A DNA stretch of 59,806 nt from a virus: positions 1 to 59,806 of IMG/VR virus record IMGVR_UViG_3300046171_000176. One strand, given 5' to 3'. Under the pieces are notes generated by a model. That model was not told the origin of the DNA. It saw only the letters and a list, made by a program, of their open reading frames with translations, and searched no databases. Within the stretch, counting starts at the first letter, position 1, and each line of letters starts with the position of its first letter. Of this stretch, positions 1,055 to 4,959 are shown piece after piece. The position numbers and the translations under genes are program-made.

Positions 1055-1246
1055 ATGAAAAAATGTAAATGTAATAATATAATACCATTAGGTAGAGTCA
1101 AGCTAGGTTATAATACCTGTGTTAATTGTAGTACAACTCAACAATATAGTTATGTGCCAATTATCGCAAACAAACAAGTGCTTGAAGTACAAATAGTATC
1201 ACAAGAAGTAAGTGCTGCGGTACATAAATCGTGGCGAAGAAAATAG
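1055..1246 (+). CDS. Small zinc-ribbon-like protein
   Basis: A 63-aa protein with C4-x-C6 and C21-x2-C24, spaced as a small zinc ribbon, and a basic tail (KSWRRK). It resembles short DksA/TraR-like zinc-finger proteins common in marine phages, but lacks the usual catalytic coiled-coil tip, so any transcription role is inferred. Its TAG stop shares its last base with the first base of the tRNA-like RNA. Confidence 0.6.
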   Translation: MKKCKCNNIIPLGRVKLGYNTCVNCSTTQQYSYVPIIANKQVLEVQIVSQEVSAAVHKSWRRK

Positions 1247-1420
1247 GGCGTGAAATGGTAAGACAAGAAATAGGAGACGATAAGATTTGAAGCTAACTAA
1301 AAATGTATGTGATGCCGACTATCGACGGGTATAAGCGAGTGTATTACATTTGTTAGTTATTTGATGTATTTCTTTGAAGTCACACTAACTTGAACGCAGG
1401 TTCGAATCCTGCCACGTCCA
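1246..1420 (+). ncRNA. tRNA-like / compact tmRNA-like RNA
   Basis: A 7-bp acceptor stem forms between GGGCGTG (1246-1252) and CACGTCC (1413-1419; one G.U pair), with discriminator A1420. A perfect T arm follows tRNA rules: GCAGG-TTCGAAT-CCTGC (1396-1412). The 5' side reads TGAAATGGTAAGACAAG, close to the tmRNA D-loop pattern. Instead of an anticodon arm there is a long insert: helix 1265-1272/1367-1374 (8 bp), inside it a 14-bp hairpin 1294-1307/1345-1359 with one bulge, and a small hairpin 1377-1391 with a 7-nt loop. CCA is not encoded. At 175 nt it is too long for a tRNA and much shorter than known tmRNAs; GGA GAC GAT AAG ATT TGA (1273-1290) sits where a tag frame might be but does not end in the usual Ala-Ala. 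A tRNA with a small intron is the alternative. Confidence 0.5.
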
Positions 1421-1422
1421 CT

Positions 1423-1578
1423 ATGGAACATCCAAACGCAAAGAAACATTTTTATGTGTCAATTCTGAAGAGTATAGTAAGAATTGTCGGGTATATGCTA
1501 ATACCTTTCAATATAGTAGCGGCATGTATAACGCTGATAACCAGTGAGTTAATCGGCATTTATGAAGAAATGGTATGA
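1423..1578 (+). CDS. Small membrane protein (51 aa)
   Basis: ATG 1423 directly follows the tRNA-like RNA; an upstream TTG frame would run through the T arm and is rejected. Residues about 15-45 are strongly hydrophobic (IVGYMLIPFNIVAACITLI), so one membrane segment is predicted. It overlaps the next gene (ATGGTATGA region, 1575-1578). Function unknown. Confidence 0.55.
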   Translation: MEHPNAKKHFYVSILKSIVRIVGYMLIPFNIVAACITLITSELIGIYEEMV

Positions 1579-3836: not shown

Positions 3837-4669
3837 AAAAAGCAATGCTTGCCCACAAATTTGATATAAGCAGAGTTGACTATTCTGAGCCTGTTTATAT
3901 TCAACCAAAGCTTGACGGCGTTAGATGTTTATTCACTGCTAATGGAGCATACTCACGCAACGGTAAAAAGTTTATGAACGTTAGACATATTGAAATGTCA
4001 CTTAAACCTTTATTTGACCATCAACCTAATATTGTACTTGACGGCGAATTATATAATCATAAACTTAAAAATGATTTTGAAAAAATTATATCACTAGTTA
4101 GAAAACAAAAACCTAGTGACGAAGATAGAATTAATGCACAACACTTAGTTCAATTTCATGTTTACGATTTCTTTGATGAATTACAATATGACTATTATGA
4201 AACTAGAATGCATAAGTTAAATGTATCTGATATATATGGACCTTGTGTTAAATATGTACCAACATACAGAGTGCATAAACACGAAGAAGCTTTGAACATG
4301 CACCATGACGCATTTCTTGCTAATGGTTACGAAGGCTCAATACTTAGACTAAATAGTTTATACAAACACGGTCGATCGTATGACTTAATGAAATTCAAAG
4401 ACTTCTCAGACTCTGAAGCTACCATTGTTAATTACGAAGAAGGTAAGGGCAAGCGATTTGGCACACTTGGTAAGTTTATAATGCAAGACGACGACGGCAA
4501 CATATTTGGTTGCCCTCCCGGTAAAGGTTATAATCATACCGACTTGAAACATATGTTGAAAAATATACATCAATATATGGGTCAGCGTGCTACATTTACG
4601 TACTTTCAACGAACTAACGCTGGTAGCTACAGACATCCATTATTTAAAGCATTAAGAAATTATGAGTAA
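3833..4669 (+). CDS. ATP-dependent DNA ligase
   Basis: A 278-aa minimal ligase (nucleotidyltransferase plus OB fold). It seals nicks during phage replication and repair using ATP. Motif I QPKLDGVR places the adenylated lysine at K26; motif III is LDGELY (69-74), motif IV EGSILRL (about 167), motif V LMKFKDF (about 186). The length matches small phage and ChlV-type ligases. It overlaps the upstream gene by 4 nt and is likely expressed with it from promoter copy 5. Confidence 0.92.
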   Translation: MKKAMLAHKFDISRVDYSEPVYIQPKLDGVRCLFTANGAYSRNGKKFMNVRHIEMSLKPLFDHQPNIVLDGELYNHKLKNDFEKIISLVRKQKPSDEDRINAQHLVQFHVYDFFDELQYDYYETRMHKLNVSDIYGPCVKYVPTYRVHKHEEALNMHHDAFLANGYEGSILRLNSLYKHGRSYDLMKFKDFSDSEATIVNYEEGKGKRFGTLGKFIMQDDDGNIFGCPPGKGYNHTDLKHMLKNIHQYMGQRATFTYFQRTNAGSYRHPLFKALRNYE

Positions 4670-4772
4670 ACTAATATGGAAACTATATAATGATAATATG
4701 ATTAGCGAAGAAGTTGCTCACATATTATTAGATAAACACTACAATAGATTAAACAATAAACGATATGACTAG
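4662..4772 (+). CDS. Tiny hypothetical protein (36 aa)
   Basis: A 36-aa frame starts inside the last codons of the ligase and ends with TAG 4770-4772, overlapping the next gene start at 4765. The overlaps on both sides match the packing of this arm. ATG 4698 would give a 24-aa product. No domain recognised. Confidence 0.5.
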   Translation: MSKLIWKLYNDNMISEEVAHILLDKHYNRLNNKRYD

Positions 4773-4959
4773 AGATATTATTATTCAACAAGTAATTGAA
4801 AAAATTAAATCACGTTCAGACGTCGGCTTTAAAAAGTACGGAGTTACACTAAAAGATGACGATCAACCTCTTGATATATGGCTAACACATATACAAGAAG
4901 AATTAATGGACGCGGTTAATTATATTGAAAAAGCAAAAGACGTATTAAACAATGGATAG
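4765..4959 (+). CDS. Small MazG-like helical protein
   Basis: A 64-aa protein whose second half, DIWLTHIQEELMDAVNYIEK, matches the helix of short phage MazG-like (dNTP pyrophosphohydrolase-type) proteins, including the paired acidic residues. It lacks most of the full MazG fold, so enzymatic activity is doubtful. A second MazG-like segment is present in the 11907-12701 gene. Confidence 0.55.
   Translation: MTRDIIIQQVIEKIKSRSDVGFKKYGVTLKDDDQPLDIWLTHIQEELMDAVNYIEKAKDVLNNG

Follow-up and report, generated by a model that had tools for sequence, protein, structure and literature searches.

The RNA gene of 175 nt described here is the tRNA-like domain (TLD) of tmRNA alone, enlarged by an insert. 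It lies near the start of a linear IMG/VR virus record of 59,806 bp, the whole of which is called the window. TLD-only tmRNAs were already known as a rarity. The sequences suggest three new aspects: their breadth in viruses, the selection on alanine identity there, and exchangeable inserts at the tip of the P2 helix. Pattern scans of IMG/VR yielded at least 139 distinct TLD-only RNA sequences, mostly of 62–88 nt, so that these RNAs appear to be a common and largely unannotated phage mimic of the ribosome-rescue RNA. This novelty is judged against an incomplete literature in which bioRxiv is not covered as such, and this family may have been reported already in unpublished or subscription work.

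Anatomy of the RNA and its counterparts in related phages

The window was probably derived from a marine flavobacterial podophage, since the relatives of its terminase are those of phages of Flavobacterium, Cellulophaga, and Tenacibaculum. The RNA gene sits between two genes. Position 1 of the RNA coincides with the final base of the stop codon upstream (1244–1246), and the A of the encoded CTA is also the A of the downstream ATG at 1423. The features of the RNA are listed in Table 1, together with two other types of tRNA-like RNA seen in related phages.

Table 1. Positions of the parts of the window RNA, and of two other types of tRNA-like RNA at related loci
Feature	Position	Strand	Basis or remark
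Whole RNA (G1 to discriminator A73)	1246..1420	+	TLD-only tmRNA-like, insert at P2 tip; closing domain kept in 49 phage-group RNAs
Acceptor stem, 5' strand GGGCGTG (G3 at 1248)	1246..1252	+	Pairs with 1413–1419
D-loop without D-stem, AAATGGTAAGA	1253..1263	+	G18G19-like GG at 1257–1258; position as in tmRNA TLD
P2, 5' strand (CAAG..TAGG..GAC)	1264..1278	+	Fold of window and L112; P2 permutation tests (n = 44, n = 86)
100-nt insert, inner hairpin ~1293–1306 with 1345–1359	1279..1378	+	Alignment with L112, L060, L162, L193, L003
P2, 3' strand GTCACACTAACTTG	1379..1392	+	Permutation test; fold/alignment with L112
T arm GCAGG-TTCGAAT-CCTGC	1396..1412	+	T loop is canonical; alignment A2 has compensatory T-stem changes
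Acceptor stem, 3' strand CACGTCC (U70 at 1417)	1413..1419	+	Pairs with 1246–1252
Discriminator A73 (1420) and encoded CTA (1421–1423) instead of CCA	1420..1423	+	Read from sequence
~47-nt elements	L057:~4289-4335, L058:~3958-4004, L006:~4748-4794, L008:~4492-4538, L032:~4681-4727
RNAs closed by GGTCAG/CTGACC or AGATCAG/CTGATCT	L035:4574-4663, L042:4306-4384, L047:3618-3719, L053:4575-4676, L041, L064

The acceptor stem has 7 bp including G3·U70, and with the T arm it flanks ~143 nt. P2 begins with CAAG (1264–1267) paired with CTTG (1389–1392) and extends inward. The unconstrained minimum-energy fold includes the acceptor stem, the T arm, and the 14-bp inner hairpin, all of which had been proposed in a first-pass annotation; the hairpin belongs to the insert. 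The absence of an anticodon arm, proposed at the same time, is borne out. The folding energy has a z score of -1.61, and 7 of 200 shuffled sequences fold equally well. By itself it is weak evidence for the RNA, and the strong evidence is conservation.

A 162-aa protein is encoded 1 kb downstream of the window RNA, and scanning with it gave 80 related loci. In many of them, the gene for this protein is preceded by the same closing domain. The phage group thus assembled contains 49 RNAs, the window RNA and 48 in related phages, and the relatives measure 65–185 nt with a fixed closing domain. Conserved features are the acceptor stem, the D-loop (acceptor, 2–5 nt, then GG), the T arm, and a 3' end of ACTA or ACAA, and the middle is hypervariable; the GG at 2–5 nt after the acceptor in 49/49 members was required by the search. 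No ORF of 40 aa or longer encloses the RNA in any of the 49. In the window subgroup the D-loop is AATGGTAAGA, and the UUCGAC of tmRNA, still present in many other family members, is lost.

The insert is best understood from the related phage L112, whose RNA is only 79 nt long: GGGCGTGAAATGGTAAGACAAGAAATAGGAGGC-GAAA-GCCACACTAACTTGAACGCAGGTTCGAATCCTGCCACGTCCA. The 100 nt of the window take the place of its GAAA loop. Outside this loop, 73 of 75 bases are identical between the two RNAs, and the remaining two differences form a compensatory pair, the closing pair at the P2 tip being G-C in L112 and A-U in the window. L060 has the small loop as well, with a different acceptor, and L162 and L193 have different inserts at the same point as the window. 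The 175-nt RNA is therefore an enlarged version of a common RNA of 62–88 nt, a relationship that was missed at first. The same comparison bears on an 8-bp helix, identified here as AAGAAATA/TATTTCTT, that had been taken for P2. It is probably not P2, because L112 and L060 retain AAGAAATAGG without its partner TATTTCTT.

Reading by eye shows parts of the inserts again in other phages, both within tRNA-like RNAs and elsewhere. Recurrent folded modules (e.g., ACCGCGGCGTAAGCAAAGGT, ACCAGGGAATCCCATGGT, and ..GTATGTG..ACGGAAGTGTATTAC) are found at P2 tips and alone in intergenic regions, in L025, L051, L008, L055, L058, L011, and the window insert.

Relation to tmRNA and selection on alanine identity

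In the phage group, the pair 3:70 is G·U in 47 of 49 RNAs and A-U in 2. The pair 4:69 is C-G in 34, A-U in 12, G-C in 2, and U·G in 1, and the pair 6:67 is U-A in 47 and C-G in 2 (n = 49 for both). A scan that left positions 3–5 and 68–70 free found G3·U70 in 19/19 fully paired RNAs with a varied 5:68 pair; the scan used tmRNA-like D-loop letters and samples that part of the family. Alanine identity, that is G3·U70 together with A73, is thus present in 19/19 RNAs of the free scan and in 47/49 of the phage group. This conservation suggests that charging matters, either for EF-Tu binding or for entry into the ribosome. A passive sponge for SmpB would not need G3·U70 to be so conserved, and a role in which the charge is used is suggested.

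The flanks of P2 pair better within one RNA than across RNAs (13.5 versus 8.4; 0 of 20,000 permutations as high, n = 44). For non-redundant RNAs, the observed value is 14.8 and the permuted value 9.3 ± 0.28 (n = 86), and here too every permutation was lower. A curated alignment (A2) of 18 TLD-only RNAs from loci outside the phage group of the window was also analysed. Paired cells amount to 87.3% in A2 versus 68.5% in shuffles, and covariation is 0.513 versus 0.168. The covariation signal is destroyed by sliding the partners. Changes on both sides are seen in 7/7 P2 pairs, and the T-stem also has compensatory changes. Both the presence of the RNA in related phages and compensatory changes in its stems had been named as checks at the outset, and both were found.

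This covariation bears on the view that the RNA is a relic of tmRNA, an att-site fragment left from integration, or a tRNA pseudogene. Although tmRNA and tRNA genes are commonly used as attB sites (PMC10865867), the RNA has its two acceptor strands and P2, all of them covarying, a search of 15 records gave no integrase, and the RNA occurs as one copy per genome at the same locus across the group. Such an origin is highly improbable.

The position of the RNA raises another explanation, tRNA punctuation, in which the fold is mainly a site for RNase P and 3' processing that cuts a polycistronic phage mRNA. That the window RNA is flush with the neighbouring stop and start codons agrees with this, and so do further anticodon-less elements of 41–47 nt that end in NCTA between genes of the phage group. 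However, the gaps are short in only 14 of 45 cases upstream and 18 of 49 downstream in the group, and both G3·U70 and P2 are conserved, neither of which is needed for cutting. We give punctuation a small chance of being the main role.

Searches with general models were of limited use for the window RNA itself. ARAGORN called 0 genes in the window, and Rfam gave nothing above gathering, with RF00023 below its cut-off. Under relaxed thresholds with tRNA-type families, the only match to the window RNA on this strand was a partial one to RF00005 (19.7 bits, below cut-off). These checks had been proposed in the first-pass annotation. Against TLD-only RNAs of other viruses, RF00023 aligns over model positions 1–374 with ~300 positions deleted and scores up to 74.5 bits (E = 3.7e-27). 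Many unrelated TLD-only RNAs exceed its gathering threshold of 47, whereas the relatives of the window RNA score 31–43 bits and the window RNA falls below. For the relatives at 31–43 bits, RF00023 outscores the tRNA model of the same clan.

A covariance model, R1, was built from A2 only, and its E-values are rough. R1 matches ~50 RNAs of the phage group of the window end to end at 42–77 bits, and the 79-nt RNA of L112 at 57 bits. Genuine tRNA-Ala genes reach up to 36.6 bits with R1 (one reaches 41.1), and presumed tRNA-Ala genes reach ~30–35 bits with RF00023. Scores in the 30s from either model were therefore rejected as proof, and only R1 scores above those of tRNA-Ala were counted. With the window RNA, R1 matches the 3' half only (29.5 bits, no better than tRNA), and a full-length match is not obtained because the insert exceeds the span of the model. 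Membership of the window RNA is therefore based on L112 and the orthologues and not on the score of the RNA itself.

A tRNA, including an intron-bearing tRNA as once proposed, was rejected. The RNA has no D-stem or anticodon arm, and when the insert is removed, the 79-nt form is still without an anticodon arm; the shortest relatives likewise have none for splicing to restore. The alternative descriptions "reduced tmRNA" and "tRNA mimic" were right in kind, as the RNA is a tmRNA TLD without anticodon arm, pseudoknots, or tag. The pseudoknots PK1–PK4 are absent: the 62–88-nt members have no room for them.

A minimal tmRNA with the tag GDDKI had also been proposed. The frame of GDDKI followed by a stop does exist, but it is common only to the window and the near-identical L003 and is missing in L112. 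A conserved tag frame was not found in the family. Among the matches listed, 6 of 139 RNAs contain a tag-like frame, against 4.4 in shuffled inserts, and 36 of the 139 RNAs listed have no closed frame of four codons. Relatives of 65–80 nt are too short for a tag. A short tag-bearing tmRNA was rejected on these grounds. ARAGORN calls a tmRNA in L003 with the tag ERTEVYYIC, which was judged an artefact; the frame reads CRLSTDISERTEVYYIC in L003 and differs in the window.

Occurrence in other viruses, and other structured RNAs

The IMG/VR pattern consisted of an acceptor, a stemless D-loop with GG, 20–50 nt, and a T arm, and it gave at least 120 matches. The matches listed are 57–86 nt long, and many retain the tmRNA D-loop GGUUUCGAC. 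Among the matches listed, 86 non-redundant RNAs of 62–88 nt were gathered. The GC content of the source loci is 33–63%. The cultured Streptomyces phage pSt2308 carries one unannotated copy (63 bits). In bacterial genomes, 58 pattern matches were obtained; ~15 look TLD-only, and the rest are tRNA or other tRNA-like genes. TLD-only RNAs and a full tmRNA occur within one assembly in a Sinomicrobium MAG, a Mycobacterium MAG, and an Acholeplasmataceae MAG. The largest tmRNA collection found, of 97,179 sequences, includes 79 phage sequences, with only 9 "standard, no CDS" forms (PMC11915505).

Cultured phages sampled from those related through the terminase (elemoE, phi19:3, phi38:1, Gundel_1, and MW202828) gave no match above the tRNA background. 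The copy in a Flavobacteriaceae MAG had no match to cultured phages by blastn, and untargeted blastn with the window region returned mostly short T-arm matches to tRNAs.

Several other structured RNAs were observed. Elements of ~41 nt (e.g., AGACATAATGGTTAATGTGAGTTCGATTCTCACCATGTCTACTA) at L012:~1524-1564, L006:~1875, L014:~2347, L037:~2009, and L067:~2404 consist only of an acceptor-like stem, a GG-containing D-loop, and a T arm, without P2 or G3·U70. They are possibly the smallest tRNA-like RNAs. In elements of ~47 nt (Table 1), the loop CTACGGTACTAARGT is conserved between the acceptor and T stems, and an anticodon arm is absent. In some relatives, near the site of the G3·U70 type, there is a tRNA-like RNA with a different closing stem (Table 1) and conserved ACAGGAAACAC..GTGTTGAAAACAATG, which is not of the alanine type. 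A longer conserved RNA ends in ...GCTACCGACGGGTATGAGGTTCGAATCCTCACTAGTTACAAA and has an AACTAG/CTAGTT closing stem with two variable hairpins upstream (L012:~4010-4190, L048, L065, L074, L061, and L063).

Phage tRNA-Met genes at L004:4851-4923, L011:5909-5981, and in other relatives have an A1·A72 mismatch (AGCGGGA/TCCCGCA) and an initiator-like look, and end in CTA, not CCA. In the relatives, the 3' ends of tRNA-Met genes read NCTA or NCAA, as in the TLD-only RNAs of the phage group. The genome scan also found tRNA-like genes of 67–71 nt (L301, L303, L312, L319, L351, and others) with a very short D arm and a long hairpin, the large loop of which has anticodon-like letters. They come mostly from Patescibacteria and other MAGs, and also from Bradyrhizobium and Ruegeria, and most are not called by ARAGORN. 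On viral contigs, a pistol ribozyme and a type II hammerhead ribozyme above the Rfam gathering thresholds (L253:3130-3201 and L213:974-1038) lie within ~0.5 kb and ~1.3 kb, respectively, of TLD-only RNAs.

Possible function and comparison with known systems

SmpB was found in 0 of 56 virus records, which may be fragments (15 of the phage group and 41 others, mostly unrelated viruses with TLD-only RNAs), and 10 of 14 control genomes were positive. Host SmpB would be needed. The function that seems just on the probable side is that of an alanine-accepting tmRNA mimic, which would compete with host tmRNA for SmpB and EF-Tu or enter stalled ribosomes. The RNA would be transcribed together with the neighbouring genes. 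Its flush position and encoded CTA suggest that host RNase P and tRNA 3' processing could excise it and that CCA would then be added. Host AlaRS may charge it with alanine. In this form the RNA could mimic charged tmRNA, bind host SmpB and EF-Tu, and compete with host tmRNA; alternatively, it could enter stalled ribosomes without offering a template. Trans-translation would be blunted or diverted during infection.

The tmRNA form of mycobacteriophage DS6A is little more than a TLD. A similar molecule strongly inhibits tmRNA, irrespective of whether it is chargeable, perhaps by titrating SmpB (PMC4131195), and the inhibition is restated for E. coli in PMC11915505. This makes interference with trans-translation the best reading.

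The same data could be read as rescue without tagging: together with host SmpB, the alanyl-RNA would go into ribosomes that have stalled on broken mRNA and take the nascent chain, other factors would release it, and the phage would free ribosomes without proteins being tagged for degradation. The conserved alanine identity implies that the charge is used, and mitochondrial tmRNAs without a tag frame persist alongside SmpB (PMC11915505). But a release step without a template is not known, and the DS6A-like molecule inhibits tmRNA and does not replace it (PMC4131195). Untagged rescue is considered unlikely. An anticodon-less RNA with conserved alanine identity could also be an alanine donor for a non-ribosomal enzyme in peptide, lipid, or cell-wall aminoacylation, its aminoacyl form being barred from decoding. 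This is very unlikely, as the flanking genes tested give no Pfam match and the retention of the tmRNA D-loop UUCGAC across much of the family speaks for SmpB instead.

Strict alanine identity predicts a difference between a plain SmpB decoy and a functional substrate for AlaRS, EF-Tu, and the ribosome. The copy in the cultured phage pSt2308 makes this prediction testable. A second puzzle is what modules the hypervariable P2-tip insert carries and for what reason. It can be speculated, though at less than even odds, that the P2 tip in the marine flavobacterial group exchanges folded RNA modules between phages, so that the TLD is a common handle for different RNA cargoes, and that an alanine-charged RNA with neither anticodon nor template is widespread in phages and acts on stalled ribosomes, either as a counter-measure to trans-translation or for untagged rescue.

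Among known systems, the closest is ssrA of DS6A (Mao et al. 2009, cited in PMC4131195 and PMC11915505). Compared by its published description, it is, like the window RNA, phage-encoded, approximately TLD only, and without a tag. DS6A is the single phage case in the literature found, whereas at least 139 distinct sequences from diverse viruses are reported here, and the window group has P2-tip inserts of hypervariable length. Bacterial tmRNA (ssrA, RF00023) shares with the viral RNAs the acceptor G3·U70 and A73, the stemless D-loop, P2, the T arm, and the lack of an anticodon arm. The viral RNAs differ in having no pseudoknots, resume codon, tag, or phage SmpB, and in a core of ~80 nt versus 300–400 nt. 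The tag frame is lost also in mitochondrial tmRNAs without an mRNA-like region (jakobids and oomycetes; RF02544) and in plastid forms of ~65 nt in Mallomonadaceae. These are organellar and not viral, and the mitochondrial genes are mostly permuted and in two pieces. tRNA-Ala resembles the viral RNAs in G3·U70, A73, the T arm, and the length of the short forms. Unlike tRNA-Ala, the viral RNAs have no D-stem or anticodon arm and carry a P2 of variable length instead, and the window RNA is not called by ARAGORN.
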